From positions 1 to 42,345 of IMG/VR virus record IMGVR_UViG_3300032820_002177: a stretch of DNA of 42,345 nt, one strand, 5' to 3'. Under the pieces are notes generated by a model. That model ran no database searches and was not told where the DNA came from. It saw only the letters and a program-made list of their open reading frames with translations. The DNA is from a virus. Made by a program: the position numbers and the translations under genes. This document shows positions 377 to 41,654 of the stretch, in pieces. The number at the start of each line of letters is the position of its first letter. Positions within the stretch are counted from its first letter, which is position 1.

Positions 377-3046
377 ATGAGTTATGCTGACGCATATTTT
401 GACAGAGACTCTGATATAATTAGAGTTGTCGAACGTAAAGAAGGTAAGCGGCGTTTTACAGAATATCCTGTAAAATATACCTTTTACTATGAAGACCCTA
501 AAGGCAAATATAAAAGTGTCTATGGAGATCCACTAAGTCGAATAGTATGTAAGAATACAAAAACGTTTCGAAAAGAAGTTGCAATTAATAATTCAAAAAA
601 ATTATTTGAATCAGATATTAATCCTATTTTTCAATGTTTAAGTGAAAATTATTTAAACCACGAAGCACCAAAACTTAATATTGCCTTTTTTGATATTGAA
701 ACAGATTATGATCCTGAGAGGGGATTTGCAGATCCAAGTGATCCTTTTATGCCCATAACTGCTATTAGTGTACACCTTCAATGGTTAAATACTCTTGTTA
801 CACTTGCTGTTCCTCCTAAAAAACTTACAATAGACGAAGCACAAAAACAAGTAAAAGAATTTGACAATACATTACTATTTGAAAAAGAAGAAGAAATGCT
901 CGAAGCATTTCTTAACTTAATCGAAGATTCGGATCTTTTAACTGGGTGGAACTCGGAAGGTTATGATATTCCTTATACCGTAAATAGAGTTTCACGTGTA
1001 TTAAGCAAAGACGACACTCGACGATTTTGTTTATGGGGTCAGCTTCCTAAAAAACGAGAATATGAAAAATATGGAAGAGAAGTTTTTACTTATGACTTAG
1101 TGGGTAGAGTACATTTAGATAGTTTAGAATTATACCGTAAATATACATATGAAGAACGGCATTCTTATAGACTAGATGCAATAGGTGAAACCGAAATAGG
1201 AGAAACTAAAACAGTTTATGAAGGTACATTAGACCAACTTTATAATAATGACTTTAGAACATTTATAGAATATAATAGACAAGATGTTTCTCTATTAGAC
1301 AAACTAGATAAAAAATTAAAATTTATTGATTTATCAAACGAACTTGCTCACGCAAATACTGTTTTATTACAAACTACAATGGGTGCTGTTGCTGTAACAG
1401 AACAGGCAATTATTAATGAAGCACACCACAGGGGTTTACAAGTACCTAATAGACCAAAACGAGATAAAGAAAATACAGGAGCAGCTGGTGCTTATGTAGC
1501 ATTTCCTAAAAAAGGATTGCATAAATGGATAGGGTCAATGGATTTAAATTCATTGTATCCTAGTGTAATCCGTGCATTAAATATGGCTCCTGAAACAATC
1601 ATAGGACAATTACGTCCTGACTTAACAGATGATATGGTGCAAACTGCAACTACTCTTGAAAAAAAATCATTTGCTGGAGCGTGGGAAGGGAGGTTTGGTA
1701 CATTAGAATATGATGCTGTTATGGAAAAACGTAAAGATGTTCCTCTTACCATAGACTGGGAAGAAGGACATTCTGAAGTAGTAAGTGGTGCAGAAGTTTA
1801 TAATCTTATTTTTAATTCACAAAATCCTTGGATGTTAAGTTCTAATGGTACTATTTTTACTACAGAGTTTGAAGGAGTTATTCCGGGCATTTTAAAACGT
1901 TGGCATGCTGAACGTAAAGAATTGCAAGAAATGTTAAAAAAAGCAAAAGATGCAGGTAATAACACAGAAATTGTATTTTGGGATAAACGTCAACTAGTTA
2001 AAAAAATTAACTTAAATTCATTATACGGTGCTATTCTTAATCCTGGTTGTAGATTTTTTGATAAACGTATTGGACAATCAACTACATTAAGCGGTAGAAC
2101 AATTGTTAAACACATGAGTGCTGAAGTTAATAAAGTTATTACAGGAGAATATAATCATGTAGGCGAAGCAGTTATTTACGGTGATACTGATTCAGTTTAT
2201 TTTTCAGCATATCCGATATTGAAAAACGACATTGAATCAGGAAAAATACCTTGGTCGAAAGAAAATGTTATTACTCTTTACGACCAAGTAGCAGAAGCTG
2301 CAAACTCTACATTTCTTAACTTTATGTCTAAAGCATTTCATTGTCCAAAAAGTCGCGCTGATGTTATTAAAGCAGGTAGAGAAATTGTTGCACAATCAGG
2401 ATTATACATTACTAAAAAACGTTATGCGGCATTAGTATATGATATTGAAGGATTTCGAAATGATTCAGAAGGAAGTTTGGGGAAAGTAAAAGCAATGGGG
2501 TTGGATTTAAGAAGGTCCGATACTCCTGTTTTTATGCAAGAATTTTTAAGTGAACTTTTATTAATGGTACTAACTGAAGCTGAAGAAAAAGATATATTAG
2601 AACGTATAACAGTATTTCGTAAAGAATTTGAAGGAAGACCTGGTTGGGAGAAAGGTTCTCCCAAACGTGCAAATAAAATAGGGCACTATCGTCGATTAGA
2701 AGAAAAACAAGGCAAAGCAAATATGCCTGGTCATGTTCGAGCGAGTATTAATTGGAATACTTTAAAACGTATGAATGGTGATAAATATTCTCAAGAAATA
2801 ACTGATGGAATGAAAGTTATCGTTTGTAAATTAAAAACCAATCCTCTAGGATATACAAGTGTAGCATATCCAACAGACGAATTACACATACCAAACTGGT
2901 TTAAAGAATTACCATTTGACGGTGGCGCAATGGCTGAAACTATTATTGATAATAAATTAGACAATTTAATTGGGGTACTAAATTATAATCTAGAAGATAC
3001 CAAACAACACAATACATTTGCAAGTTTATTTGAATTTGGAGAATAA
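377..3046 (+). CDS. 43: Family B DNA polymerase (T4 gp43-like)
   Basis: Replicative phage DNA polymerase with 3'-5' proofreading, 889 residues (T4 gp43 is 898). Exonuclease motifs are visible: Exo I FFDIETD (D106, E108), Exo II around N192-D197 (GWNSEGYDIPY) and Exo III YNRQD (Y299-D303). Polymerase motifs follow in order: motif A DLNSLYPS (389-396), motif B with KKINLNSLYG (542-551) and motif C YGDTDS (601-606), then a KKRYA element. All catalytic carboxylates are present, so the enzyme should be active. The start ATG follows AGGAATATA at a slightly long spacing. The probable sliding clamp follows at once under its own promoter. Confidence 0.97.
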   Translation: MSYADAYFDRDSDIIRVVERKEGKRRFTEYPVKYTFYYEDPKGKYKSVYGDPLSRIVCKNTKTFRKEVAINNSKKLFESDINPIFQCLSENYLNHEAPKLNIAFFDIETDYDPERGFADPSDPFMPITAISVHLQWLNTLVTLAVPPKKLTIDEAQKQVKEFDNTLLFEKEEEMLEAFLNLIEDSDLLTGWNSEGYDIPYTVNRVSRVLSKDDTRRFCLWGQLPKKREYEKYGREVFTYDLVGRVHLDSLELYRKYTYEERHSYRLDAIGETEIGETKTVYEGTLDQLYNNDFRTFIEYNRQDVSLLDKLDKKLKFIDLSNELAHANTVLLQTTMGAVAVTEQAIINEAHHRGLQVPNRPKRDKENTGAAGAYVAFPKKGLHKWIGSMDLNSLYPSVIRALNMAPETIIGQLRPDLTDDMVQTATTLEKKSFAGAWEGRFGTLEYDAVMEKRKDVPLTIDWEEGHSEVVSGAEVYNLIFNSQNPWMLSSNGTIFTTEFEGVIPGILKRWHAERKELQEMLKKAKDAGNNTEIVFWDKRQLVKKINLNSLYGAILNPGCRFFDKRIGQSTTLSGRTIVKHMSAEVNKVITGEYNHVGEAVIYGDTDSVYFSAYPILKNDIESGKIPWSKENVITLYDQVAEAANSTFLNFMSKAFHCPKSRADVIKAGREIVAQSGLYITKKRYAALVYDIEGFRNDSEGSLGKVKAMGLDLRRSDTPVFMQEFLSELLLMVLTEAEEKDILERITVFRKEFEGRPGWEKGSPKRANKIGHYRRLEEKQGKANMPGHVRASINWNTLKRMNGDKYSQEITDGMKVIVCKLKTNPLGYTSVAYPTDELHIPNWFKELPFDGGAMAETIIDNKLDNLIGVLNYNLEDTKQHNTFASLFEFGE

Positions 3047-3856: not shown

Positions 3857-5401
3857 TTGAATAAAAATTTAACAGTAGAACAAAACGACTACGCTATTTT
3901 TCTACCTGCTATAAGTGGTTTCTTTGCTACTTATATAGGAAAGCAACGATATGACGAATACGTAGAAACGTCCCGGATACCATCAAACTTTCCAAACAAT
4001 ATAGAAAGTATGAATTGGCTAAATCCTCAAAAAGGTTTATTCAACTATCATTGGTCATTGTACAGTGCAGGACACGCTGAACTAAATGTAAATAAGCATT
4101 CTCCTAAAGAAGATATGGTACGGAATAGAGATCGAAATAACAGTTGGATACTAGGAGATTCGGGAGGTTTCCAAATTGGTAAAGGCGTATGGGAAGGTGA
4201 TTGGAAAGATCCTAATTGTCCTAAAGCTAAAAAGAAACGAGAACAAGTTCTAACGTGGCTTGATGCGTATGCTGATTACGGTATGATACTTGATATACCT
4301 GCTTGGGTATCACGTTCACCAGCTGGGCAAAAAGCTACAGGTATTACAACATACCAAGAAGCTGTAAATGCCACACGCATTAATAACGAATACTTTATGA
4401 AAAACAAGTCTGGTGCTTGTAAATTCTTAAATGTATTACAAGGTGAAAATCATACTGATGCTGAAGATTGGTATCAGCAAATGAAAGACTATTGTGATCC
4501 TAAAAAATATACAGATCACTTTAATGGGTGGTCGATGGGTGGTCAAAATATGTGTGATATACACCTAGTATTAAAAAGACTTGTGGCATTACGTTTTGAT
4601 GGACTATTAGAAAAAGGTTTACATGACTATATGCACTTTTTAGGTACATCTAAACTTGAATGGGCAGTATTACTAACTGACATACAACGAGCAATTCGTA
4701 AATATCATAACAATAACTTCACAATAACATATGATTGTGCAAGTCCGTTCTTAGCAACTGCAAATGGGCAAGTTTATATTCAAACAGAAACAGAAGATAG
4801 AGCTAAATGGGTATATCGAATGGTTCCAAGTATCGATGATAAAAAGTATGCTACAGATAATCGTTTATTTAAAGATGCAGTATTACAAGACGGTATATTT
4901 AAAAACTTTGAAAATTCTCCTATAACAGACGGATTAAAAGTTTCAGATATTTGTTGTTATAAGCCTGGTGATCTAAATAAAATAGGTAAAGAAGGCAAAA
5001 CTAGTTGGGATTCTTTTAGTTATGCAATTCAAATGGGACATAATGTTTGGCATCATATTAATGCAGTACAAGAAGCAAACAGACAATATGATAATAATAT
5101 AATTCCAAAAATGCTAGTAGATGAAAGATTTAATAGAATTTATTTTAAAGATGTGATAGAAGCAATTTTTATGACAGACAATCGAGATACTGCTAATGCT
5201 ATTATAAAAGAATTTGATAAATTTTGGACTTCTATTATTGGAACTAGAGGATTAACGGGAAAACGGTCTATTAATGCAAGTGCCATGTTTAATTCATTAT
5301 TTGAAATAGAAGATAATACTAAAATAAATGATCTCGACGAAGAAGATTTTTCTGAAGAACAAGAACATGTGTTAGAAGTATTAGAAGAAGAACAACTTTA
5401 A
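3857..5401 (+). CDS. tRNA-guanine transglycosylase-like protein (DpdA-like DNA base exchanger)
   Basis: A 514-residue protein with the signature series of the TGT fold: DSGGFQ (D101-Q106), the loop LQGENHTDAEDW equivalent to the TGT VQGG segment (about 194-205), GWSMGG (224-229, TGT GYAIGG), FLGTS (261-265, TGT MGVG) and DCASP (D293), where TGT carries its nucleophilic Asp. A segment MGHNVWHH (393-400) resembles the TGT zinc-site helix, but the full Cys-x-Cys-xx-Cys ligand set is not evident. Phage and island-encoded DpdA proteins of this superfamily insert preQ0-type bases into DNA. FolE, QueE and a QueD-like gene nearby support that role over tRNA modification. The only plausible start is TTG at 3857; the C-terminus is very acidic. 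Confidence 0.77.
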   Translation: MNKNLTVEQNDYAIFLPAISGFFATYIGKQRYDEYVETSRIPSNFPNNIESMNWLNPQKGLFNYHWSLYSAGHAELNVNKHSPKEDMVRNRDRNNSWILGDSGGFQIGKGVWEGDWKDPNCPKAKKKREQVLTWLDAYADYGMILDIPAWVSRSPAGQKATGITTYQEAVNATRINNEYFMKNKSGACKFLNVLQGENHTDAEDWYQQMKDYCDPKKYTDHFNGWSMGGQNMCDIHLVLKRLVALRFDGLLEKGLHDYMHFLGTSKLEWAVLLTDIQRAIRKYHNNNFTITYDCASPFLATANGQVYIQTETEDRAKWVYRMVPSIDDKKYATDNRLFKDAVLQDGIFKNFENSPITDGLKVSDICCYKPGDLNKIGKEGKTSWDSFSYAIQMGHNVWHHINAVQEANRQYDNNIIPKMLVDERFNRIYFKDVIEAIFMTDNRDTANAIIKEFDKFWTSIIGTRGLTGKRSINASAMFNSLFEIEDNTKINDLDEEDFSEEQEHVLEVLEEEQL

Positions 5402-6279
5402 TGACAACCTTTTTTGTAGAATTTGAAGAAAACAATAATAAACTTGTTTTAGAATTTATTGTTTACGAAACTCCAATAGGAGTTAAATGGGCTGAAGAGC
5501 TTAAAGCTCAGCTTCTACGCACAGAAGAACTTTTCGAAAATGATAGATTATATAATTTTGGAAATAATTGGCCAACAGAAAAAATTGTTTCTAAACTTAA
5601 TAATTGTATACAATCTATCAACGAATGGAAGGAATTTATTCCATATAAACTAGATATTCCAGTAAATCAAGAAATACTTAATCAACTACACAAATATTTT
5701 GAAGACATGCGTGGTGGAGTGCTCTCCCCAGGGGAATTTTGGAATGAGGCTCCAAAAAATATAAAAAAATGTATTTCAGACTACAATGTATTAATACATC
5801 GACTAGAAGATAAACAAAATAATTTAATAGCAAGACCGAGAATAGTTATTACATTTAAAAGTCGACCTAGGCATTTACTAAATGATAATGATTTTGATTA
5901 CTTTTCTAAAAATATTAATTTTGGAGAAGTTTATGTAAATTATTGTGAAGTAGGAAAACCATTATGGGATGTCTTTAAAGACGATGATAATATAGTAGGT
6001 GAACATAATATTAGACCATTAAAATATTATTCATCAGATATGTCTATATATTTTACTACAGGATCAATGAATTCTAAAATGCATTTATTTGATCAATGGT
6101 GGCACAGAAATGAAAATTTTCTTAACTCTTTAGGCTTTTACAAAGGCGATAAAAAACTTGCTATAGGTCTTCTTCCGGTTGCTAAACTGGTAAAAGACCC
6201 TACATTTAATAATCAATACTACATTGATGAAATTTCAAAATATAATACAATTTCCAAAGTGAGGATAAAAAATGACTAA
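5401..6279 (+). CDS. Unrecognised protein in the modification cluster
   Basis: A 292-residue soluble protein with no motif I can assign. It starts immediately at the stop of the TGT-like gene (TAATG), so the two are probably translationally coupled. This makes it a candidate partner of the TGT-like protein. The middle contains Lys- and Arg-rich strands (RPRIVITFKSRPRH, about 151-164), and the C-terminal half is rich in Trp, His and Tyr. No signal peptide or membrane segment is seen. Confidence 0.6.
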   Translation: MTTFFVEFEENNNKLVLEFIVYETPIGVKWAEELKAQLLRTEELFENDRLYNFGNNWPTEKIVSKLNNCIQSINEWKEFIPYKLDIPVNQEILNQLHKYFEDMRGGVLSPGEFWNEAPKNIKKCISDYNVLIHRLEDKQNNLIARPRIVITFKSRPRHLLNDNDFDYFSKNINFGEVYVNYCEVGKPLWDVFKDDDNIVGEHNIRPLKYYSSDMSIYFTTGSMNSKMHLFDQWWHRNENFLNSLGFYKGDKKLAIGLLPVAKLVKDPTFNNQYYIDEISKYNTISKVRIKND

Positions 6280-6481
6280 TTTTGAAAATCGAAAAAATGA
6301 ACTGCAATATCAAATAATTAACCTAGAAAAAATACATAGAGAACTTGACAATTTTATAGAATCTTGCTATAATAATAGTTATATAGATGATAATATTCGT
6401 AAAATGAAAATTACTAAACTTCGATTAAAAGATGAAATTTGTAGAATCAATGAAAAACTGTCGCAACTGGAATTAGGATGA
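6272..6481 (+). CDS. Small coiled-coil protein
   Basis: A 69-residue, highly charged protein whose sequence is largely helical with heptad-like Leu/Ile spacing (ELQYQIINLEKIHREL early, LRLKDEICRINEKLSQLEL at the end). It is probably a short antiparallel coiled coil. It overlaps the preceding gene by 8 bp and has the RBS GAGGA. Its stop overlaps the next start (ATGA). Function not recognisable; perhaps an adaptor within this cluster. Confidence 0.55.
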   Translation: MTNFENRKNELQYQIINLEKIHRELDNFIESCYNNSYIDDNIRKMKITKLRLKDEICRINEKLSQLELG

Positions 6482-7023
6482 AACGAGACTATTTTACAGG
6501 TAAACATGATGATGTGATCTTTTTCACAGGCGTCGAAGTAGAAAAAACTCCTGCATATGATCTTGATACACTATTTGTTGTGGGAGCCCAACCTATAAGT
6601 GATATTTTAGAACAAATTGAAAAGGGTTACACAACACACATTTATCTTGGAGCTAACCAAAGTTTCCATATAGATATATCTCAAAATCATCAAGGAGAAA
6701 TTAAATTATGGTCTGATATTATATTTAAATTACTTGATAAAGGATATTGGGTTACATTAGATTATGATATAAAATATCACAATTGGGTACTTGATTGTAA
6801 CTTTAACGAACATCAAAAGTTTATATCTCAAATTAGTGTTAAATTACCATCCATTGAGAAATTAAATTATAATGCTTGTATTAAAATTGATGATCGTGAT
6901 TATAACTATTCTAATCCTGGTGTATGGGTACACACCGTACATGATTTAAAAAAACGTAAAGTCTTTACACCATGGAGTGAATATGAAGACGACGAACCGT
7001 TAGGAAACGAAAATAATGAATAA
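6478..7023 (+). CDS. Conserved marine T4-like phage protein of unknown function
   Basis: A 181-residue protein. Notable segments are LFVVGAQPISDILEQI (32-47), IYLGANQSF (about 55-63), YWVTLDYDIKYHNWVL (about 89-104) and ISVKLPSIEKLNYNACIKIDD (about 119-139), ending acidic. The text has the flavour of a conserved protein of marine T4-like phages, but I cannot attach a reaction to it. It sits between coupled genes and directly before the QueD-like gene, with ATGA and 8-bp overlaps, so a role in 7-deazaguanine synthesis or transfer is conceivable but unproven. No Cys triad or nucleotide-binding loop is visible. Confidence 0.6.
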   Translation: MKRDYFTGKHDDVIFFTGVEVEKTPAYDLDTLFVVGAQPISDILEQIEKGYTTHIYLGANQSFHIDISQNHQGEIKLWSDIIFKLLDKGYWVTLDYDIKYHNWVLDCNFNEHQKFISQISVKLPSIEKLNYNACIKIDDRDYNYSNPGVWVHTVHDLKKRKVFTPWSEYEDDEPLGNENNE

Positions 7024-7456
7024 AATGGATGACATGATTATGGATAAAATGAAGGAAGAACGACATAGTAAAATTATGAGAAATGCAAATCGAATGATTT
7101 GGGTTACATTCCGAAAAGAAGGAATTCATAAATATCCTGCGGCTCTAGATGATCCAAAACTTGCTACTGGTGACAAGTTTGATGTATCATTTTTAGGATT
7201 TTTACATCGACATACATTTCATTTTAAAGTAGCAATAGAAGTTTTTCATGATGATAGAGATATAGAATTTATACAATTTAAAAGATGGTTGGAGGAACTA
7301 TATGAAGGGGAACTAAATGTAGACTATAAGTCTTGTGAAATGATGGCTGATGATTTATATGAAAAAATTTCAGCTAGATATCCAAGTAGAGAAGTACACA
7401 TTGATATATCTGAAGATGGCGAAAACGGTTGCCATGTCCAGTATACAAAAGACTAG
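7016..7456 (+). CDS. QueD-like (6-pyruvoyl-tetrahydropterin synthase family) protein
   Basis: A 146-residue protein resembling the QueD/PTPS tunnel fold. GIHKYPAA (H38) matches the first zinc His region, and FLHRHTFHFKV (H64, H66) matches the HGHxF pair. IEFIQFKRWL (83-92) matches the mV.DF..lK segment, SCEMMADDLYEKI (106-118) matches the t.E.la segment, and HIDISEDGENGCHVQY (128-143) matches the v.Et....a.Y ending. QueD converts the FolE product to 6-carboxy-tetrahydropterin, the substrate of QueE. The catalytic Cys usually found just before HGH is replaced by hydrophobic residues here, so activity may differ. Context with FolE, QueE and the TGT-like gene supports the call. Confidence 0.62.
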   Translation: MNKMDDMIMDKMKEERHSKIMRNANRMIWVTFRKEGIHKYPAALDDPKLATGDKFDVSFLGFLHRHTFHFKVAIEVFHDDRDIEFIQFKRWLEELYEGELNVDYKSCEMMADDLYEKISARYPSREVHIDISEDGENGCHVQYTKD

Positions 7457-7467
7457 AGGACAAAATA

Positions 7468-7662
7468 ATGACTACGAACTTTCCTCCAATTAACGAAATT
7501 TTTGACGATTTAGATAAGTTTCGTGATTACTGCCGATTTGAAGGTAAGGTCTATGATGAGAGAGATCTTTATAATGAAAAATCTAGAGTATGGCGTTCTT
7601 ATCAAAAATACTTAACTTGGAAAGCAAATAAAAAGCAAAGTAGCCCACGAAAACGAAGATGA
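7468..7662 (+). CDS. Small basic conserved phage protein
   Basis: A 64-residue protein. The start chosen is ATG 7468, preceded by GAGG at proper spacing, not an upstream codon inside the QueD-like gene. The sequence is an acidic Phe/Asp-rich N-terminus, then a Tyr-rich helix (ERDLYNEKSRVWRSYQKYL), then a very basic tail (SSPRKRR). It looks like a conserved small gene of T4-like marine phages. Function unknown; the tail could bind nucleic acid. Confidence 0.55.
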   Translation: MTTNFPPINEIFDDLDKFRDYCRFEGKVYDERDLYNEKSRVWRSYQKYLTWKANKKQSSPRKRR

Positions 7663-8744
7663 CAGTTTATATTGTAGACATAGAAGCAGTAGATACACGA
7701 TACACTAAACAGTGGAAGGAATATCTACCTAACCAATTACAGAAAGCTACTAAAAATGAAGTTATTGTTATTAGTGGAGGTGAAACTCCTCAAACAACAA
7801 CTCCGGGAGCATTCTTAAACTTTGGTGGCACTAATGTTTATAAAAGTAAACAATTAGAAAAAATAGGAGAAATGTTTTGTAAAGGAAAAGTAAAAACAGG
7901 CGATTACTTTTTATATACCGATGCATGGAATCCTACAGTCATACAACTAAAATATATGGCAGAGCTATTAAATGTAAAAATTAAATTAGGTGGACTATGG
8001 CATGCAGGCTCTTATGATCCGGCGGATTTTTTAGGTAGATTAATCGGAAATAAACCCTGGTGTAGATATGCAGAAAAATCTATGTTTGAGGTATATGATC
8101 ATAATTTTTATGCTACAGACTTTCATATTAACATGTTTTCAAATGAATTAAAACAAGGCGATACTGCATTGGATTATTGGATTAATAAACAAAAAGAAAA
8201 AAATAAAATAATCCGTTGTGGTTGGCCTTTTGAATATTTAAATAAATCATTAGCTCAATATACTGGTATGAAAAAACGAGATTTAATTTTATTTCCGCAT
8301 AGAGTTGCTCCTGAAAAACAACCTGAAATATTTAGAGATTTAAAAAATGATTTTCCTAATTATGAATTTATTGTGTGCCAAGATCAATTATTAACAAAAA
8401 ATGAATATCATAATTTATTGGGTGAGGCTAAAATTATTTTTAGTGCAAATCTACAAGAAACTTTAGGTATTAGTTGGTATGAAGGAGCATTAGTAGATGC
8501 ATTACCAATGGTACCTAATCGACTAAGTTATGACGAAATGGGTTTAAATGAATTTAAATATCCTTCAGAATGGACTATAAATTATAATTCTTATCTAAAA
8601 AATAAAGAACATATTAAAACAAAAATAACAGACTATATAGAAAATTATGATTCTTATCTTCCATTAATTAAAAAACAAGTTAACAAATTAAAAGAAAACT
8701 ATTTTAGTGGGCACAAACTATATAAGGTAATAAACAATGAATGA
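7659..8744 (+). CDS. GT-B glycosyltransferase (GT4-like, EX7E motif)
   Basis: A 361-residue retaining-type glycosyltransferase candidate. The C-terminal half has the donor-binding pattern LILFPHRVAPEKQPEIF (209-225), a beta-alpha unit YEFIVCQDQ, then AKIIFSANLQETLGISWYEGALVDALPMV (257-285). This contains the EX7E motif (E267 and E275) typical of GT4-type GT-B enzymes. The acceptor is unknown. Lying among DNA-replication and 7-deazaguanine genes and not beside tail genes, it could glycosylate DNA bases as T4 alpha/beta-glucosyltransferases do, or act on a host glycan. ATGA-type overlaps on both sides put it in the same operon. Confidence 0.78.
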   Translation: MTVYIVDIEAVDTRYTKQWKEYLPNQLQKATKNEVIVISGGETPQTTTPGAFLNFGGTNVYKSKQLEKIGEMFCKGKVKTGDYFLYTDAWNPTVIQLKYMAELLNVKIKLGGLWHAGSYDPADFLGRLIGNKPWCRYAEKSMFEVYDHNFYATDFHINMFSNELKQGDTALDYWINKQKEKNKIIRCGWPFEYLNKSLAQYTGMKKRDLILFPHRVAPEKQPEIFRDLKNDFPNYEFIVCQDQLLTKNEYHNLLGEAKIIFSANLQETLGISWYEGALVDALPMVPNRLSYDEMGLNEFKYPSEWTINYNSYLKNKEHIKTKITDYIENYDSYLPLIKKQVNKLKENYFSGHKLYKVINNE

Positions 8745-9129
8745 TAAAAATTTTACATGGGATGTAACTCCTGCTGAAGCAGAAGATTACAAATTTGAAC
8801 ACGACGGTATTACTATAACAATTAATACAGATGCTAAACCTCGAATGGCTCCGATAACCCACCAATATCAAATAGGTGGTATCTCAACTACAAATAATAC
8901 TCAAGGTGCTGGTCTTGGACAATACACCTATGACACAAATGGACAAATTAAAGAGTTTGGAAAAGCTAAGGCTGCAGATGATTGGCCTAATGAATCTGTA
9001 ATAGAAGAAATGATTAAAAAATATCCAGGTCTTAAAATTCAATACGATAAGTTTATGACTGTATATAATTTAGTTAAAGATGACTACACATACGAGGAGC
9101 ACTATGAAAAAGTTGATGGCTCTATTTAA
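8737..9129 (+). CDS. Conserved hypothetical phage protein
   Basis: A 130-residue acidic protein of unknown function. A Gly/Thr/Asn-rich middle (ISTTNNTQGAGLGQYTYDT) separates two charged regions, and the C-terminus has IEEMIKKYPGLKIQYDKF. The RBS is AAGG, 8 nt or so before ATG 8737. It overlaps the glycosyltransferase gene by 8 bp. No domain recognised. Confidence 0.55.
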   Translation: MNDKNFTWDVTPAEAEDYKFEHDGITITINTDAKPRMAPITHQYQIGGISTTNNTQGAGLGQYTYDTNGQIKEFGKAKAADDWPNESVIEEMIKKYPGLKIQYDKFMTVYNLVKDDYTYEEHYEKVDGSI

Positions 9130-9535
9130 AAATAGAAAAAGAGTAATTTATGATCGTTTTAATAAGGTACCTTATCTAATTCGATATTATTTATTTTTGC
9201 AAGATCGGAAAAGATTTCCTTTCAATATTACATTACATAAAATTTTAGTTAGCGACATAGATGATTTACATGATCATCCTTGGAACTATGCTACACTAAT
9301 TTTAAAAGGAGGTTATTGGCAACATACTCCAGAAGGCAAACACTGGTGTGGTCCGGGACATTTTCGTTACTGTAAAGCATCTGATTTACATAGATTAGAA
9401 TTATCAAAAATAGATAATAAAGAAATTCCTTGCTGGAGTCTTTTCTTTATGGGAGTGAAGAAACAAGAATGGGGATTTATTAAAAATGGTAAGTGGATTC
9501 ATAATGAAACTTATTTGAAAGAAAAATATTCATGA
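9104..9535 (+). CDS. Cupin-like protein
   Basis: A 143-residue protein starting at ATG 9104, chosen because GAGGAG (9094-9099) sits at ideal spacing; it overlaps the previous gene by 26 bp. The core DLHDHPWNYATLILKGGYWQ, followed by PGHFRYCKASDLHRLEL, reads as the two cupin motifs, with an HxH metal site in the first and a His in the second. Single-domain cupins of this kind are usual in T4-like marine phages. The reaction is unknown; sugar or small-molecule metabolism is likely. The stop overlaps the next start. Confidence 0.65.
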   Translation: MKKLMALFKNRKRVIYDRFNKVPYLIRYYLFLQDRKRFPFNITLHKILVSDIDDLHDHPWNYATLILKGGYWQHTPEGKHWCGPGHFRYCKASDLHRLELSKIDNKEIPCWSLFFMGVKKQEWGFIKNGKWIHNETYLKEKYS

Positions 9536-10002
9536 TGAAAAAACATTATTATAGTTGGCAGGATATAGAAACAATGTGTATTAACATTGTAATTCAAATG
9601 GCTAAAGACAAATGGTTACCTAATTATATTGTTGGAATTACTCGCGGAGGAAATATACCAGCTACTATAATAAGCAATATGTTAGCTATTAGATGTGAAA
9701 CATTAAAAGTTAGCTTTCGTGATGATACTAAAAAATCTGAATCAAATAAAATAATGGCTAATGATTCTTTAAATAAAAATATTTTAATAATTGACGATAT
9801 TAATGATACCGGTGCTACATTTAATTGGATTAAAGAAGATTGGAATATTACAGGTCAACCAAATCTCCGTTTTGCAGTTTTAACTGAAAATTTGTCTAGC
9901 GAATTTGGAGGTGTAAATTACTGGAGTCACGAAGTAAACAAAGCTGACGATAATGTATGGTTAGTGTATCCCTGGGAAAATGTGGGGGGATATCGTGAAT
10001 AA
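9532..10002 (+). CDS. Phosphoribosyltransferase (type I PRTase)
   Basis: A 156-residue protein with the PRPP-binding motif ILIIDDINDTGAT (84-96) preceded by a hydrophobic strand, and the upstream loop VGITRGGNIPA (34-44) that binds pyrophosphate. This is the architecture of hypoxanthine/xanthine-type PRTases. It probably salvages a purine or modified base to its nucleotide. Near preQ0/7-deazaguanine genes, a role with a deazaguanine base is an attractive inference. Starts at tandem ATGs overlapping the cupin stop. Confidence 0.85.
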   Translation: MMKKHYYSWQDIETMCINIVIQMAKDKWLPNYIVGITRGGNIPATIISNMLAIRCETLKVSFRDDTKKSESNKIMANDSLNKNILIIDDINDTGATFNWIKEDWNITGQPNLRFAVLTENLSSEFGGVNYWSHEVNKADDNVWLVYPWENVGGYRE

Positions 10003-10210
10003 TATTGTAGAATTTAAAAGAAAGACAGAAGTATTTGTTTTAAAATTTAAAACACCTGACGTTATTAAATTTACAAAAGGAGATAAGCATTCTGATATTA
10101 TGTTAGAAATGGAACAGAATAATGGTACTGCATGGGTACCTGCACCTAATATTAATGAAGCTCGAAAAAGATTACATACAATGATGACTATATTAGAATG
10201 GAAGGAATAA
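9995..10210 (+). CDS. Small conserved phage protein
   Basis: About 71 residues if read from GTG 9995, which follows GGGGGA at good spacing. An in-frame ATG at 9980 would add five residues. Sequence: a strand-rich basic N-terminal half (VEFKRKTEVFVLKFKTP), then helices ending ARKRLHTMMTILEWKE. No family recognised. It is tightly packed between the PRTase and HIT genes. Confidence 0.5.
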   Translation: MNNIVEFKRKTEVFVLKFKTPDVIKFTKGDKHSDIMLEMEQNNGTAWVPAPNINEARKRLHTMMTILEWKE

Positions 10211-10211
10211 A

Positions 10212-10631
10212 ATGACAGAAAAAAAAGAAATACCTTGGACTGATATTTTAATCGATACAAGAAATTATACTGTTTATAAAGACGGATTTCCTGTTACAGA
10301 AGGACATGTTCTGTTTGTTCCAAAAAATGATGATTGGAAAAATCTAACAGAATGTTTTGAAGCAGCCTATAAGTGGGGATATGATTGGCTTAAACGAGGA
10401 TACTGTGATGCTTTTAATATAGGGCAAAACGTAGGAGAGGCAGCTGGCCAAACTGTTATGTACCCTCATATCCATTTAATTCCTCGACGTAATGGTGATA
10501 TGAGTGATCCGCGTGGAGGTGTTCGACATGTTATTCCTGAAAAGGGAAATTACAAAAGAGATAAGAAAAAAGAAGAAGAAGATAAACAGTGGGCAGAAAT
10601 GACCGCGCATCAAGAAAGGTTTGATTTTTAA
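10212..10631 (+). CDS. HIT-family (histidine triad) nucleotide hydrolase-like protein
   Basis: A 139-residue protein. GHVLFVPKND (31-40) and AFNIGQNVGEAAGQ (67-80) lead to TVMYPHIHLIPRR (81-93), the HIT motif region. In canonical HxHxH the middle His is the nucleophile. Here the first position is Tyr (Y84), while H86 (nucleophile position) and H88 are kept. HIT proteins hydrolyse or transfer nucleoside phosphates such as Ap4A or AMP-lysine. The RBS AAGGA precedes ATG. Function in the phage is not known; alarmone or nucleotide clean-up is plausible. Confidence 0.85.
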   Translation: MTEKKEIPWTDILIDTRNYTVYKDGFPVTEGHVLFVPKNDDWKNLTECFEAAYKWGYDWLKRGYCDAFNIGQNVGEAAGQTVMYPHIHLIPRRNGDMSDPRGGVRHVIPEKGNYKRDKKKEEEDKQWAEMTAHQERFDF

Positions 10632-10644
10632 TAAGGAGAATATA

Positions 10645-10842
10645 ATGAGAGAAAAACTTTTAGAGGCTTTTAAAAGTCATGCAACTGGAATGATTTCTAA
10701 GCATGTAGCTAACGTTGAGGTATTTTTAGCTAGTCCAGTAGGAGTAGCTGAACACCCTGATACAATTGATACTATTGAAAAAGAATTGGAAAATATTGCT
10801 CATTGGCATGATATGTTAGAGATGTCAGAAAAATATTTTTAA
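10645..10842 (+). CDS. Small conserved T4-like phage protein
   Basis: A 65-residue, helical, His-rich protein, from ATG 10645 behind a clear AAGGAG. Residues such as HATGMISKHVANVEVFL and a C-terminal LENIAHWHDMLEMSEKYF look like a conserved small protein of T4-like marine phages, to my recollection. No activity can be assigned. It is the last gene before a host-type promoter, so it may close the preceding transcription unit. Confidence 0.6.
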   Translation: MREKLLEAFKSHATGMISKHVANVEVFLASPVGVAEHPDTIDTIEKELENIAHWHDMLEMSEKYF

Positions 10843-10847
10843 ATTAC

Positions 10848-10876
10848 TTGACAAAAACCTAAATATCATGTATTAT
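10848..10876 (+). promoter_or_regulatory. Host sigma-70-type promoter for folE-queE
   Basis: TTGACA at 10848-10853 and TATTAT at 10871-10876 with a 17-bp spacer, upstream of FolE. The -35 is perfect and the -10 has one or two changes. It would give a leader of about 40 nt. Confidence 0.82.
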
Positions 10877-10883
10877 AACAATG

Positions 10884-10909
10884 GAGTAAGACGTCCTCGT
10901 CTATAACTC
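10884..10909 (+). promoter_or_regulatory. Hairpin in the folE leader, directly before the RBS
   Basis: AGACG (10889-10893) pairs with CGTCT (10898-10902) around a TCCT loop. The outer GAGT (10884-10887) pairs with ACTC (10906-10909) across a small asymmetric loop. The structure ends right at the Shine-Dalgarno CGGAG. It could stabilise the mRNA 5' end or modulate initiation. It does not fit the preQ1-I riboswitch layout. Confidence 0.5.
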
Positions 10910-10923
10910 GGAGAATTAAATTT

Positions 10924-11601
10924 ATGCTTACAACTGCGGAAATAATAAAAAAACGATTAAAAGAAGCAAACATTAGATATCATTGTAATGATAACATTTC
11001 TGAATTTATTGAAGAAGGTGAATTAGAAATTTTACAATTAGAAGTGGAAGATGCATTTAGTAATGTTTTGAATTCTTTAGTTATTGATACAAATAATGAT
11101 CATAATACTAAAGAAACAGCAAAACGTGTAGCAAAAATGTTTATTAAAGAAATCTTTAAAGGAAGATATGAACCTTGTCCAAAAGTTACAAGTTTTCCTA
11201 ATATGGGTTACAAATCACTTTATACTAGCGGACCTATTTCTATTCGTAGCACTTGCGCTCATCACTTTCAAAATATTGTTGGAAGTTGCTGGGTAGGTAT
11301 TATTCCAGAAGAAGAAGTTATTGGTCTTAGTAAATTTAATAGACTAGCACATCATATTGCAGAACGACCGCAAATACAAGAGGAAATGACTACACAAATT
11401 AGTAATGCGCTTATAGAGTACGCTAAAACAGAACATGTTGCTGTTGTTGTAAAAGCAGAACATCATTGTATGACACAACGAGGTGTTAAAGAACACGAAA
11501 GTGATATGACTACTGCAATTATGCGAGGAGCATTTGAAACTGATTCTGCATTAAAACAAGAATTTTATAGTGTTTGTTTAAGTATGAAAGGTCATAATTA
11601 A
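10924..11601 (+). CDS. folE: GTP cyclohydrolase I
   Basis: A 225-residue enzyme converting GTP to dihydroneopterin triphosphate, the first step of both folate and 7-deazaguanine (preQ0) synthesis. Zinc ligands are visible: C111 and the adjacent HH (STCAHHF, 109-115) and C182 (EHHCMTQRGV, 179-188). The core GLSKFNRLAHHIAERPQIQE (134-153) is the family signature. It has its own promoter and a leader hairpin. QueE follows after 2 bp, so the pair forms a dedicated unit for deazaguanine synthesis, not folate. Confidence 0.96.
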   Translation: MLTTAEIIKKRLKEANIRYHCNDNISEFIEEGELEILQLEVEDAFSNVLNSLVIDTNNDHNTKETAKRVAKMFIKEIFKGRYEPCPKVTSFPNMGYKSLYTSGPISIRSTCAHHFQNIVGSCWVGIIPEEEVIGLSKFNRLAHHIAERPQIQEEMTTQISNALIEYAKTEHVAVVVKAEHHCMTQRGVKEHESDMTTAIMRGAFETDSALKQEFYSVCLSMKGHN

Positions 11602-11603
11602 AT

Positions 11604-12476
11604 ATGAAATTAAGGTATTCAGAAGCATTTTATTCCGTCCAAGGCGAAGGAAAATTTGTAGGAGTACCTAGTGTATTTTTGCGTACTTTTGGTTGCAATT
11701 TTCGTTGTATGAACTTTAGCTTACCTCGAGGTACAAAAAAAGATAAACATAATCCCGAAGTAAAAAAATTATTAGATAATGGAGTACATTTAACTACAAA
11801 GAACTTTAATGATTTACCTATTATCCATACAGGATGTGATACATATGCAAGCATCTATCCCGAATTTAAAAAATTTATGATGGATAAAACAATAGACGAG
11901 GTTGTTGAACATCTTTTATCACTTACACCTGAAGGTAAATGGACAATGCAAAATGGGCAAGACATTCATCTTATCTTTACAGGAGGTGAACCTTTGTTAG
12001 GATGGCAAAGGCTTTATATAGAACTATTAGATCATCCTAAAATGAAAGACTTAAAAAATGTTACATTTGAAACAAATACTACCCAAACTCTTAGAAAGGA
12101 TTTCAAAGAATTTTTATCAACTCAGAACAGATTTAAAATTACTTGGAGTTGTTCCCCAAAACTTAGTATTAGCGGAGAATCTTGGGAAGATGCAATTAAC
12201 CCTAACTTGGCAGTTGATTATGCTAGTGTTAATGGTAGTGAACTTTATCTTAAGTTTGTTGTCGCTGACAAAGTGGATGTGGACGAAGTTGGAAAAGCTG
12301 TTAAAGAATACAAAAACGCTAACTTGGACTGTCCAGTCTATCTTATGCCGCTTGGGGGACGTTCTGAAGAATATAACTTTACCTATCCCGAAGTTGCGAA
12401 ACTCGCAATGGAAAAAGGATGGCGATTCACACCACGATTACACATCAGTCTCTTCGGAAATGCATGGGGAACTTAA
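11604..12476 (+). CDS. queE: 7-carboxy-7-deazaguanine synthase (QueE), radical SAM
   Basis: A 290-residue radical SAM enzyme that turns 6-carboxy-tetrahydropterin into 7-carboxy-7-deazaguanine. The N-terminus YSEAFYSVQGEGKFVGVPSV (5-24) is the QueE substrate-binding start, followed by RTFGCNFRC (27-35) and FTGGEPLL. The [4Fe-4S] cysteines are C31, C35 and C78 (GCDT). The third Cys, normally two residues after the second, is displaced by a 42-residue insertion. The GCDT context that ends the usual motif is intact, so it likely still closes the cluster site. It follows FolE closely and is presumably active. Confidence 0.93.
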   Translation: MKLRYSEAFYSVQGEGKFVGVPSVFLRTFGCNFRCMNFSLPRGTKKDKHNPEVKKLLDNGVHLTTKNFNDLPIIHTGCDTYASIYPEFKKFMMDKTIDEVVEHLLSLTPEGKWTMQNGQDIHLIFTGGEPLLGWQRLYIELLDHPKMKDLKNVTFETNTTQTLRKDFKEFLSTQNRFKITWSCSPKLSISGESWEDAINPNLAVDYASVNGSELYLKFVVADKVDVDEVGKAVKEYKNANLDCPVYLMPLGGRSEEYNFTYPEVAKLAMEKGWRFTPRLHISLFGNAWGT

Positions 12477-12549: not shown

Positions 12550-12929
12550 AATGGCTAGACAAACTATTAAAAAAAGAAAATTCTAATGAAGAAATAAAAG
12601 AACTTTCGAACGAAGAAATTCGTCGAAAAACATTAGAATTAGAAAAACAAGAAGCAACTAAAAATGGAAAACCATGGGTTGCTGTATTAGATACACAAAT
12701 TAATACTAACGATATTAGAAATGGTTTCTTTGAACTTGATTGGAACAACGAATTTATTGAGCAACTTATTGATGCAGGTTATTCAGGAGAAGCAAACGAA
12801 GAAATAGTTGATGCTTGGTTTAGAACTATTGTTATTCAAATGTTAGAAGAAGAAGGACTTGATCCTGATAGAGAAATGGGTTATATTAACGTAACACCTA
12901 TAGGAAAAGGTAAATCTGAAGTATCGTGA
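12546..12929 (+). CDS. Acidic conserved phage protein
   Basis: A 127-residue, strongly acidic protein. The N-terminal third is a charged helix (SNEEIKELSNEEIRRKTLEL). It is followed by GKPWVAVLDTQINTNDI, then FFELDWNNEFIEQLIDAG and EEIVDAWFRTIVIQML, ending GKSEVS. It looks like a conserved T4-like marine phage protein of unknown role. RBS GAGGATC precedes the ATG. The stop overlaps the next GTG start. Confidence 0.6.
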   Translation: MKWLDKLLKKENSNEEIKELSNEEIRRKTLELEKQEATKNGKPWVAVLDTQINTNDIRNGFFELDWNNEFIEQLIDAGYSGEANEEIVDAWFRTIVIQMLEEEGLDPDREMGYINVTPIGKGKSEVS

Positions 12930-13615
12930 TATATAAATTAAAAAGTAAACGTCCAGGAAGTCCATATGCTCCTAGTTGGGACATTAGTTTAGGATCATAT
13001 CAATGGGAAGACAGTGAAAAGATTAAAACTATAAAAGAATTTTTATTATCTAAAGAAGAAGAAATTCTTAAATTAGAGGTTAATCAAGATGCTGGAACTG
13101 GATTAGGTGAAGAATCTGTAACTACACGGTATGGACGTTACAATGTATTTGGGTTAGGGGAAGAATGTCCTGAAATAAACAACTTATTTAAATTTATACA
13201 AAAATCTTATCTTGAATTTATTAAAGAAGATGATACAATACTTCTTCCTTTAAAAATAATTTGTTGGTATAATATTATAAGAAAAGGACAAGAAATTAAA
13301 GAACACTCTCACGGAGCAGGTGAGATTATTTACCTAAGTGGAAATGTGCATCTAGATAATTATGACTCTGTAACTAGATATGTTGAGCGCGGAATGGACT
13401 GTTGTATGCCGAACATTGCTGGTGGATTAACGATTTTTCCTAGTTACGTTAGTCATAGTGTTGCAGAATGGCAAAACGATTATCCTCGACTAAGTTTAGC
13501 ATTTGATTTATATATTGATATACAACCATACTATCCTTCTGCAGACGATGACGGACATCCAATAACTTTTATGAACTTTGATATACTTAATCAGTTAGCT
13601 GACCCACGCAATTAA
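12926..13615 (+). CDS. 2-oxoglutarate/Fe(II) oxygenase-like protein
   Basis: A 229-residue protein starting with GTG at 12926 (overlap with the previous TGA). The C-terminal half follows the phage 2OG-Fe(II) oxygenase pattern: WYNIIRKGQEIKEHSHG (about 114-130, with H127 and H129), a strand IIYLSGNVHL, then GGLTIFPSYVSHSV (166-179, distal H177) and a substrate-Arg position in YPRLSLAFDL (R188). The acidic metal ligand is not obvious (E133 is a candidate). Substrate unknown; nucleotide or protein hydroxylation is possible. Confidence 0.65.
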   Translation: MIYKLKSKRPGSPYAPSWDISLGSYQWEDSEKIKTIKEFLLSKEEEILKLEVNQDAGTGLGEESVTTRYGRYNVFGLGEECPEINNLFKFIQKSYLEFIKEDDTILLPLKIICWYNIIRKGQEIKEHSHGAGEIIYLSGNVHLDNYDSVTRYVERGMDCCMPNIAGGLTIFPSYVSHSVAEWQNDYPRLSLAFDLYIDIQPYYPSADDDGHPITFMNFDILNQLADPRN

Positions 13616-18889: not shown

Positions 18890-19525
18890 ATGAATAATCA
18901 AAATTATGCAGTTGTTCCTTTATTTTCTTCTCCCGTATTTGAGTCAGGAGAACAATTTGAAATATCTAAATCCTTTTTAGATTTTATCAAAAATGTAGAA
19001 GTAACTGCTTGTTCTCCTGAGAACAAGGAACATCGGAATTCAGTTAATTCATATATCTTAGAACTAAAAGAATTTGCTGACTTAAAAAAATTTATAGTAA
19101 AACAGCTTGCTATATATGTTTATGAAGTTTTAAAAATAACAACTGCACATAATTTTTATATAACACAATCTTGGTTAAATTTTAATGAACGTGGAGAGGA
19201 TCATCATCAACATTGGCATCAAAATAGTTTAATTAGTGGAATTTTTTATATAGCTGGAGATTTTTGTCCTACAGCCGTTTTAAGTAGAGAAGGTGATCCA
19301 CCTTTTGGTAAAAATTGGGCATTTGAATTAGAAGAATTTAATGTTTATAATAGTGGTAAATGGACATTTGAAAATAAAAAAAATTCACTGCTAATATTTC
19401 CTTCTACAGTAGAACATTATGTTGAAGCATATAAAGGTTTTGATACAAGAATTACTTTATCTTTTAATACTTTTGTTAAAGGAAATTTGGGCCTGGGTCC
19501 TAATAAAAATGAACTTATATTATGA
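18890..19525 (+). CDS. 2OG-Fe(II) oxygenase-like protein (inserted gene)
   Basis: A 211-residue protein of the phage 2OG-Fe(II) oxygenase type: SWLNFNERGEDHHQHWHQNS (94-113, His-rich metal region), SGIFYI (116-121), then SLLIFPSTVEHYVEAY (166-181, distal H176) and RITLSFNTFVKGNLG (R187). It has no clear Shine-Dalgarno sequence (the ATG follows an A-rich ATATCAAAA), unlike most neighbours. It is flanked by a 54-bp direct repeat, so it appears to be a later insertion or the product of a recombination that duplicated the flank. Substrate unknown. Confidence 0.8.
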   Translation: MNNQNYAVVPLFSSPVFESGEQFEISKSFLDFIKNVEVTACSPENKEHRNSVNSYILELKEFADLKKFIVKQLAIYVYEVLKITTAHNFYITQSWLNFNERGEDHHQHWHQNSLISGIFYIAGDFCPTAVLSREGDPPFGKNWAFELEEFNVYNSGKWTFENKKNSLLIFPSTVEHYVEAYKGFDTRITLSFNTFVKGNLGLGPNKNELIL

Positions 19526-22110: not shown

Positions 22111-23052
22111 ATGGAGTATTTTGAATTAAATCCTGAAGATAATACATTTTCAAATATAGTAATAGACTTAACTCATCGATGTAATATGGAGTGTGCAAAC
22201 TGTTACATTCCTAATCGTGACATTCCGGATCTTAATAAAAACAAGCTATATAATTTTTTAGAAAAACTTCCTAATCGAACATATATTCGTTTAATAGGTG
22301 CTGAACCTACTATGCGAGAAGATATTTTTGAAATAATTTCAACTGTTAAAAAAATAGGACATAGACCTAGCCTTACTACTAATGGATTAAAACTCGGGCA
22401 ACTTTCTTATGTTGAAAAATTAAAAGAAGCCGGCTTACGCTTATTATTACATAGCATGAATGGTGCCGATGACGATGAAATATATAAAATTCTAGATAAT
22501 GGAAAATGGGCAACTATAAAAGTTCGAGCATTAGAAAATATTTTTAAATGCAAACTTCCAGTTAATACTGGAACAATTATAGCCAAGGGTACAAACGAAC
22601 AAACAATTGGAAGACAAGTTAAAACATTTATCAATTCCGCAATAAAAACTGGAGTTAATTTTAACACAACAAAACCTTATAATCGAATTACACCTGTACT
22701 AAGAATTAAAAGTGTAGGATTAATAGGAAGAAATATGGGAGGAAATTGTGCATATGAAATTTTTGAATTAGCACAATTGGCGTCTGAACAATTAGATATT
22801 TCTTATAATTTAATTACTAATAGTAAAGCTACTTCGGGTGTAGTAAAAGCAGGTGCATACGGTGAAGCAGAAACCAGTCTATTATTTCCTTATGAAACGG
22901 AAGCAGGGAAAATCTTTATAAGATTAATTGATTGGCGCATTAATGACGAAGGAGTTATCGACCATGACAATCCTAACAGAGGTCGTTTAACTGAAGACTG
23001 GACTGTTGCTCCTTTCTTTGAACATTTAAAGAAGAATGAATTTGGATATTAA
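22111..23052 (+). CDS. Radical SAM enzyme, substrate unknown
   Basis: A 313-residue radical SAM protein with the CX3CX2C cluster motif CNMECANC (C24, C28, C31) and a GAEPT (63-67) in place of the usual GGEP SAM-binding motif. TTNGLKL follows. No C-terminal SPASM cysteine cluster is seen. It is the first gene of an operon with a protein of uncertain fold and three oxygenase-like proteins, which looks like a small biosynthetic or tailoring pathway. Overlaps the next gene by 17 bp. Confidence 0.88.
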   Translation: MEYFELNPEDNTFSNIVIDLTHRCNMECANCYIPNRDIPDLNKNKLYNFLEKLPNRTYIRLIGAEPTMREDIFEIISTVKKIGHRPSLTTNGLKLGQLSYVEKLKEAGLRLLLHSMNGADDDEIYKILDNGKWATIKVRALENIFKCKLPVNTGTIIAKGTNEQTIGRQVKTFINSAIKTGVNFNTTKPYNRITPVLRIKSVGLIGRNMGGNCAYEIFELAQLASEQLDISYNLITNSKATSGVVKAGAYGEAETSLLFPYETEAGKIFIRLIDWRINDEGVIDHDNPNRGRLTEDWTVAPFFEHLKKNEFGY

Positions 23053-23674
23053 GGTAACAACACATAAAATTAATCGAGAAATTCAATCTGAAATTTTAAC
23101 ATTTCTTCAAGATCAAACAGAATTTGGTCGATTAGAAAAAAATTATACAAAAGAAAAATTAGATTTAGATATATGTGATGCTATTTCTATTATACGTGAT
23201 AAAAACGAAATACTTTCTTTTAGTACATTATTAAATCGAAATCTTTTTGGTAATGCTATTCGATGTGTAAATCGATTATATAAATCACCCGTATATCGAC
23301 ATCGTAATTTAGATCATTACAATAGAATTAAACTTGTTACATTCGAAATGATCCAGCAACAAATGTCATTTGCAAAAGAAAATAATTATGATATTATCTT
23401 TATGAGTCGAGAATTAAAAGATATTAATGTTAAAAATGAAAAATCTTTTAATTCAACTGCTATGAATAGATGGAAAGAATATCTACCTGATAAAAATAAC
23501 TGGATTTATAGTCCAGATATGCATTTAGTTATTCCTCCAAAAACTACTAAAACAAACTGGCAATCAATTCTTTATTATAAATTAAAAGATAATGTCGGAT
23601 TACAACTAGAAAAAATCTCATTAAATAAATATAATGAGTTGTTTATTAAAGGGGATATTAATGAAAATTTCTAA
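23036..23674 (+). CDS. Unrecognised protein, possibly GNAT-like
   Basis: A 212-residue basic protein. The part about residues 95-130 (IKLVTFEMIQQQMSFAKENN, then YDIIFMSREL) and AIRCVNRLYKSPVYRHRN (about 75-92) resemble the late strands and helix of GNAT-type acyltransferases, but the acetyl-CoA loop is not clear. If correct it would acylate a product of the radical SAM enzyme. Confidence in the fold is low; the gene itself is secure from its coupled position. Confidence 0.45.
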   Translation: MNLDIKVTTHKINREIQSEILTFLQDQTEFGRLEKNYTKEKLDLDICDAISIIRDKNEILSFSTLLNRNLFGNAIRCVNRLYKSPVYRHRNLDHYNRIKLVTFEMIQQQMSFAKENNYDIIFMSRELKDINVKNEKSFNSTAMNRWKEYLPDKNNWIYSPDMHLVIPPKTTKTNWQSILYYKLKDNVGLQLEKISLNKYNELFIKGDINENF

Positions 23675-39584: not shown

Positions 39585-39611
39585 TATATACTTAAGACAG
39601 AGAAATGTCAA
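39583..39611 (-). promoter_or_regulatory. Host sigma-70-type promoter of the minus-strand operon
   Basis: On the minus strand TTGACA (39611-39606) and TATACT (39588-39583) with a 17-bp spacer. It starts at the 3' end of the fibre gene and points to the 115-residue gene. No other promoter is seen until 27290. Confidence 0.82.
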
Positions 39612-40651: not shown

Positions 40652-40680
40652 TATATCTCCTTGCGAATAAAGTACTCATA

Positions 40681-40688
40681 TATTTATT
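40681..40688 (-). promoter_or_regulatory. T4-type late promoter (minus strand)
   Basis: AATAAATA on the minus strand, 30 bp before the ATG at 40651, in the 67-bp gap between the two paralogous fibre genes. Confidence 0.65.
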
Positions 40689-40718
40689 CAAACAATGAAA
40701 TATATTAATTTTATTGAA

Positions 40719-41621: not shown

Positions 41622-41646
41622 GGTGCAATCCTATTATAATTTTGAA

Positions 41647-41654
41647 TATTTATA
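41647..41654 (-). promoter_or_regulatory. T4-type late promoter overlapping a stop codon (minus strand)
   Basis: TATAAATA on the minus strand. The TAA within it (41652-41650) is also the stop codon of the gene upstream. It lies 26 bp before the ATG at 41621. Confidence 0.72.

Follow-up and report, generated by a model that had tools for sequence, protein, structure and literature searches.

A viral gene cassette predicted to exchange guanine in DNA for a 7-deazaguanine by a branch without QueC

Overview of the cassette

We analysed the genes at positions 3857–12476 of a 42,345-base window, a genome fragment held as one IMG/VR virus record (IMGVR_UViG_3300032820_002177). These genes probably form a cassette that makes a 7-deazaguanine and exchanges it for guanine in the phage DNA, by a branch that dispenses with QueC and bypasses preQ0, and with the probable addition of a sugar. 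The cassette contains a DNA guanine transglycosylase of the DpdA type, FolE, QueE, a relative of QueD, a glycosyltransferase and a phosphoribosyltransferase (PRTase), all on the plus strand. A first-pass annotation, made from the sequence alone, had described a cassette for 7-deazaguanine DNA modification at this position. All of its open reading frames (ORFs) were found where it had placed them, and the core of its call, centred on DpdA, stood; one gene, which it named QueD, had been misnamed.

The order of the genes was compared with that in other IMG/VR loci, counting for each gene the loci with enough room downstream of DpdA. A conserved gene that we call orf4 was present in 65 of 65 such loci, the QueD relative in 63 of 63, the glycosyltransferase in 56 of 56, the PRTase in 44 of 44, a cupin in 45 of 49, a HIT-family gene in 35 of 37 and FolE in 35 of 36; QueE, at the distal end of the cassette, was present in 36 loci. 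Depending on the gene, the order was thus preserved in 35–65 further viral contigs, with DpdA identities of 72–99%, and the clustering is therefore not due to chance.

A DpdA-type transglycosylase of a separate subfamily

The gene at 3857–5401 encodes a protein of 514 amino acids, and its TTG start codon lines up with the ATG of its homologues. Neither the protein nor its own profile gave a usable match in Pfam, NCBIfam, PHROGs or PDB sequences, and a comparison of folds was therefore required. An AlphaFold2 model was built from 23 sequences, comprising that of the window and those of viral contigs (predicted template modelling score, pTM, 0.78). When this model was compared with the PDB using Foldseek, 32 chains were matched at E ≤ 0.001, and all of them were tRNA-guanine transglycosylases (TGTs), from the best at 1.4e-6 to the last, the archaeosine TGT 1iq8, at 2.1e-4. 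Among viral models (BFVD), the named matches were the TGT of Achromobacter phage Motura (1.0e-9), DpdA2 of Vibrio phage nt-1 (4.6e-9), a phiST protein of 259 amino acids and a mycobacteriophage queuine tRNA-ribosyltransferase. Judged by its length, the phiST protein would be the product of a gene close to the deazaguanine genes of that phage.

Profile–profile comparison gave a consistent result. With hhalign, the protein matched a profile of five DpdA2-type proteins (95.6%, E = 1.1e-8), with the DSGG(F/L)Q motif and a later Asp aligned; earlier tests against single DpdA2 sequences had been weak (50–86%), and higher values were obtained only with the multi-sequence DpdA2 profile. The two residues concerned, D101 (in DSGGFQ) and D293 (in DxxS), are invariant in 25 members of the family, including those of Pseudomonas phage PA5oct, Sinorhizobium phage Phosso and Vibrio phage 2.275.O. 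Both align with Asp residues of nt-1 DpdA2 and of ACP17 gp123, and D293 alone also aligns with one in Escherichia coli TGT.

A TGT fold would also be expected of a cassette that modifies the tRNA of host or phage rather than DNA, and the early genes of the pathway are common to tRNA queuosine synthesis (PMC6884629). However, the CxCxxC zinc motif of tRNA TGTs, which was detected in the E. coli TGT control, was found in none of the 25 family members. In addition, the viral structural neighbours are of the DpdA2 type, and there are no tRNA genes in the window. We consider a role in tRNA modification highly improbable. The proposal of a TGT/DpdA-like protein in the first-pass annotation is thus backed by predicted structure and profile–profile comparison, though not by sequence libraries, and the full zinc site that it had named as a sign of a tRNA enzyme was looked for and is absent.

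With the profile of the window-type DpdA, no match at E ≤ 10 was obtained in the full records of nt-1, 9g, CP220, HCTV-5, ACP17, X1 and other phages, and the tie of this DpdA to DpdA2-type proteins is one of profile–profile similarity only. Because the predicted fold and the motifs are those of the TGT superfamily, while no profile match was obtained in the DpdA phages tested, we assign the protein to DpdA by fold and motifs, as a separate sequence subfamily; in this comparison DpdA3 and DpdA4 were represented only by CP220 and HCTV-5 as stand-ins. Members of the subfamily in PA5oct and Phosso are 33% and 28% identical to the window protein, and across phages the gene is linked to deazaguanine synthesis genes by synteny and gene neighbourhood. 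A pattern scan of IMG/VR for the window DpdA gave at least about 600 matches in marine viral contigs; scans with the Phosso protein found two relatives, and those with the PA5oct and Vibrio 2.275.O proteins found nothing. In Vibrio phage 2.275.O (11905–21290 of locus L086) a window-type DpdA lies beside QueF, YhhQ, QueC, FolE and QueE, and the subfamily therefore also occurs with a preQ0/preQ1 pathway.

FolE, QueE and a paralog of QueD

FolE (GTP cyclohydrolase I, 10924–11601) matched PF01227 with an E value of 1.2e-46 and 158.8 bits (cut-off 27). QueE (7-carboxy-7-deazaguanine synthase, 11604–12476) matched phrog_2076 (1.6e-49). The three cysteines of its [4Fe-4S] site, C31, C35 and C78, are spaced as in the QueE of nt-1, and the cysteines and a GGEP motif align with the nt-1 and 9g enzymes. 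Both genes had been named correctly in the first-pass annotation, which placed FolE, QueD and QueE, three consecutive steps, together in the fragment. FolE and QueE are there; the place of QueD is taken by a different protein.

The protein in question (146 amino acids, 7016–7456) belongs to phrog_17812, annotated as of unknown function, and no match to PF01242 was found in the window. Its profile aligned with that of QueD (70.8%, E = 3.8e-5). It retains H38, H64 and H66 in a zinc-type H...HxH arrangement, a pattern kept across most of the family alignment, together with a C-terminal Glu. The catalytic residues of QueD are missing: L60 stands at the position of Cys27, and Asp70-His71 falls in a segment that the paralog lacks. 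The family has conserved motifs of its own, namely EGxHxxP, HRHxF, DRxxEF, KSCEM and EDGE. Judged by these residues, 7016–7456 encodes a distant paralog of QueD and not QueD itself. The original QueD call does not hold, and relatives carry a true QueD elsewhere. A QueD-family protein with the catalytic residues lies in one cluster with the paralog in ACP17, phiST, RHph_I1_18 and BUCT-ZZ01, and away from it in PA5oct, Phosso, X1 and the marine contigs G001, G009 and G014. This coexisting QueD probably carries out the QueD step, because it is of the same type as the one that adjoins QueC in Motura.

In a widespread type of phage QueD (L104, L105, L106 and L088:10798–11274), the zinc HGH reads HGY and the first zinc His is often missing, with the Cys and Asp-His kept. 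As its residue losses are complementary to those of the paralog, we considered that the two might form one mixed enzyme. This idea lost weight, since QueC-bearing phages such as Motura have an HGY-type QueD but not the paralog.

Distribution of QueC

QueC was not found in the window, and no match above the cut-off was obtained in 25 related contigs or in PA5oct, Phosso, ACP17, X1, RHph_I1_18, phiST, Bakedbeans, Ahp1, BUCT-ZZ01 and G001. The genomes of PA5oct, Phosso and ACP17 are complete. Weak matches in G004, G015, G014 and X1 were rejected, being below the cut-off and covering only part of the model. QueC is carried by nt-1, Vibrio phage 2.275.O, 9g, CP220, Motura, phi38:2, HCTV-5 and PhiXhv-15, and none of these was recovered when all phage records were searched with the paralog. 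These results suggest that, among the phages examined and with one ambiguous case, the paralog occurs where QueC is missing.

The first-pass annotation had noted the absence of QueC and offered three explanations: a gene outside the window, supply by the host, or a modification that stops at the carboxy form. The absence was borne out both in the window and in the complete genomes of the three relatives. The third option, a pathway that does not run via preQ0, is therefore favoured, and the lack of QueC belongs to the pattern and is not solely an artefact of the fragment.

It is unlikely that the cassette serves the ordinary preQ0 pathway, with 7016–7456 a divergent working QueD, QueC provided by the host or by unseen parts of the genome, preQ0 inserted by DpdA, and the glycosyltransferase and other genes carried as passengers. 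Such an arrangement would agree with the fragmentary window, with the frequency of QueC among hosts, with the zinc-His pattern and Glu that the paralog shares with QueD, and with the QueC and QueF that accompany the DpdA homologue of Vibrio phage 2.275.O. However, the paralog lacks the catalytic Cys and Asp-His and has QueD alongside it in at least seven phages, three complete genomes that carry it are without QueC, and the glycosyltransferase and paralog remain paired in phages that differ in their type of DpdA.

In the QueC-free branch that we favour, FolE and QueE of the window and a true QueD, encoded elsewhere in the phage genome or by the host, would convert GTP to 7-carboxy-7-deazaguanine (CDG). 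The type of QueE found in the window is functional, since dPreQ0 is present in the DNA of nt-1 (PMC6884629), whose QueE belongs to the same subfamily. The QueD-fold paralog would replace QueC and use CDG as its substrate, and the carboxyl group would most likely be removed or altered, in the manner of DpdL; decarboxylation to 7-deazaguanine is the reaction that we would guess first. Cui et al. are said to have named DpdL, in 2023, as a 7-carboxy-7-deazaguanine decarboxylase that has CDG as its substrate where a phage lacks QueC. The window DpdA would then exchange the product of the paralog for guanine in DNA by means of D101 and D293.

The glycosyltransferase and its linkage to the pathway

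The gene at 7659–8744 encodes a protein of 361 amino acids. The window protein itself has no significant Pfam match; 5 of 17 members of its family match PF00534 (Glycos_transf_1), the best at 8e-12, and the EX7E glutamates, E267 and E275, are invariant in the family. The family is accordingly read, from its sequence, as GT4-like glycosyltransferases of the predicted GT-B fold, in agreement with the EX7E glycosyltransferase first proposed. When 21 records were searched with a profile of the family, the gene was found in marine contigs, PA5oct, Phosso, ACP17, X1 and BUCT-ZZ01, and there was no match in seven QueC-bearing controls. In all six settings it adjoins or lies near the paralog. The marine viruses, PA5oct and Phosso have the window-type DpdA, and ACP17, X1 and BUCT-ZZ01 have a DpdA2-type enzyme. 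As they are found with two types of DpdA, the glycosyltransferase and the paralog go with the pathway and not with one particular DpdA.

This glycosyltransferase superfamily is linked to deazaguanine synthesis a second time, in Xanthomonas phage PhiXhv-15 (L134:6669–9903). There a Gat-QueC fusion that carries the annotation GlmS immediately precedes a PIG-L-type deacetylase, and a distant homologue of the glycosyltransferase comes next; the Gat-QueC and deacetylase domains were read by eye together with the QueC match. The run suggests a sugar-bearing base of the archaeosine type.

The glycosyltransferase would probably add a sugar to the base or to its precursor. We propose tentatively that a 7-deazaguanine bearing a sugar may stand in for guanine in the phage DNA, its synthesis requiring no QueC but a QueD fold put to a new use and a glycosyltransferase specific for the base. 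Such a glycosylated purine in DNA would have a parallel in the mannosyl- and galactosyl-queuosine of animal tRNA. There is also a substantial chance, if less than an even one, that the deazaguanine cassette is real and the glycosyltransferase has a different target, for example a pyrimidine base or a glycan of the cell surface or virion. GT4 enzymes are versatile, the paralog occurs without the glycosyltransferase in some phages, and PA5oct and Phosso each have a protein of PF00303, a family that includes thymidylate synthase and pyrimidine hydroxymethylases. On the other hand, no PF00303 match was found in the marine contigs G001, G009, G012 and G014 or in the complete genomes of ACP17 and X1. 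These therefore have no pyrimidine hydroxymethylase of the T4 type, and hence no such known hydroxymethylpyrimidine route. The position of the gene amid deazaguanine genes in all six settings, and that of its distant homologue two genes from Gat-QueC in PhiXhv-15, also argue against a different target.

The phosphoribosyltransferase

The PRTase gene (9532–10002) matched PF00156 (3.3e-11), and its top NCBIfam match was a xanthine PRTase. It adjoins QueE in BUCT-ZZ01 and lies near QueE in PA5oct. The enzyme is a candidate for salvage, and would probably recycle the guanine expelled by DpdA, or else act in the manner of TubE, the CDG-specific phosphoribosyltransferase that joins CDG to phosphoribosyl pyrophosphate in tubercidin biosynthesis (PMC6112128). 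The latter activity would allow a nucleotide route, in which ribose-5-phosphate is placed on CDG, the modified deoxynucleoside triphosphate is polymerised, and the TGT-fold protein has some other role. Conservation of the PRTase in every locus counted, its place beside QueE in BUCT-ZZ01 and the precedent of TubE are in keeping with that route. Nevertheless, DpdA has both catalytic Asp residues in every aligned locus, no dedicated kinase is linked within the window, the PRTase was not detected at the module in ACP17, X1 and Phosso, and its best family match is to xanthine/guanine enzymes; we regard the nucleotide route as very unlikely. The first-pass suggestion that the interleaved genes further process the base gains support, as far as the glycosyltransferase and the PRTase are concerned, from the recurrent linkage of these two in unrelated phages.

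Several observations weigh against base exchange by a QueC-free branch with glycosylation. The DpdA model is of moderate confidence (predicted local distance difference test, pLDDT, 72.5) with low template modelling scores to TGT (about 0.4–0.55), and the match between the paralog and QueD profiles is only moderate. The status of QueD and QueC in the window is that of a 42 kb fragment and not of a whole genome. Vibrio phage D479, the ambiguous case, has the paralog together with a partial QueC-family match over the cut-off, and because the phages compared for QueC were picked rather than sampled at random, the contrast is suggestive and not a test. Five paralog-bearing phages in the 21-record search had no glycosyltransferase, so that the two genes are separable, and phage glycosyltransferases can have other purposes.

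Other genes of the cassette and the window

The product of orf4 (181 amino acids, 6478–7023) is linked to DpdA. It has homologues in PA5oct (43%) and in ACP17, where the gene is directly upstream of DpdA. Its AlphaFold2 model is confident (pTM 0.81) and matched no PDB structure, and no relationship to the other cassette proteins was found by profile comparison or structure. Two further small ORFs are conserved: that at 7429–7662 (77 amino acids) is syntenic in 71 loci, and that at 8737–9129 (130 amino acids) in 47. The gene at 9080–9535 encodes a cysteine-dioxygenase-like cupin (151 amino acids; phrog_4786 ‘cysteine dioxygenase’, 3.6e-35), which was not detected in cultured relatives, and that at 10212–10631 a HIT-family hydrolase/transferase (139 amino acids; PF01230, 2.2e-9). 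These matches, like that of the PRTase, agree with the names first given. The ORF at 5401–6279 (292 amino acids) is not conserved, being shared among cassette loci only by the near-identical locus L002, and probably lies outside the pathway.

Upstream of the cassette is a family B DNA polymerase (377–3046), for which the closest matches in public phages are from jumbo phages (Phosso, 49%; Atu_ph07; Vibrio 2.275.O; 121Q). The virus is a marine relative of giant phages. Elsewhere in the window, CxxxCxxC proteins resembling radical SAM enzymes are encoded at 22111–23052 and 31318–36032, the latter cluster on the minus strand amid glycosyltransferase-like ORFs. ORFs at 12926–13615, 18890–19525 and 23634–25173 resemble Fe(II)/2-oxoglutarate oxygenases by eye, and three minus-strand ORFs at 39608–42294 are rich in Ala, Gly, Ser and Thr and appear structural- or fibre-like.

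Significance and comparison with known systems

This analysis brings to light a DpdA subfamily overlooked by family libraries, corrects a QueD assignment and leads to the prediction of a branch without QueC in which glycosylation is probable. If the sugar-decorated deazaguanine is real, it would be a new phage way of disguising DNA. The cassette occurs commonly among marine viral contigs and also in phages that can be cultivated: the PA5oct group (on Pseudomonas aeruginosa PAO1), ACP17, X1, BUCT-ZZ01 and Phosso, in which the genes of the module are mostly annotated as hypothetical.

The DpdA2/preQ0 system of nt-1 (Hutinet 2019, PMC6884629) has in common with the window the TGT fold, the DSGG(F/L)Q motif and later Asp, FolE, a QueE of the same subfamily and the setting of a large myovirus. 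It differs in that the window DpdA profile has no match at E ≤ 10 in the genome of nt-1, and in that the window fragment has the paralog and glycosyltransferase and no QueC, whereas nt-1 has neither the paralog nor the glycosyltransferase. The tubercidin pathway (TubC, a FolE; TubE, a PRTase; TubF, a decarboxylase; PMC6112128) resembles our proposal in that CDG is made by a FolE-type route, with a PRTase step and a decarboxylation after it; unlike the window, it acts on nucleotides, with a UbiD-type TubF and no transglycosylase.

PA5oct and Phosso share with the window its type of DpdA, the glycosyltransferase, the paralog and QueE, and both also have a true QueD and lack QueC. In Phosso, unlike the window, the genes are scattered, and no HIT or cupin gene was detected at the module in either phage. 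A cultured freshwater cyanophage, Synechococcus phage BUCT-ZZ01 (L126:7450–13524), carries QueE, a xanthine-guanine PRTase, QueD, FolE, a DpdA2-type protein, the paralog and the glycosyltransferase in one run, with its DpdA, paralog and glycosyltransferase annotated as hypothetical. Acidovorax phage ACP17, Xanthomonas phage X1 and BUCT-ZZ01 differ from the window in having the DpdA2-type protein instead of the window type. They resemble it in keeping FolE, QueE, the paralog and the glycosyltransferase together in the absence of QueC, and the likeness extends to an orf4 homologue in ACP17 and to the PRTase in BUCT-ZZ01.

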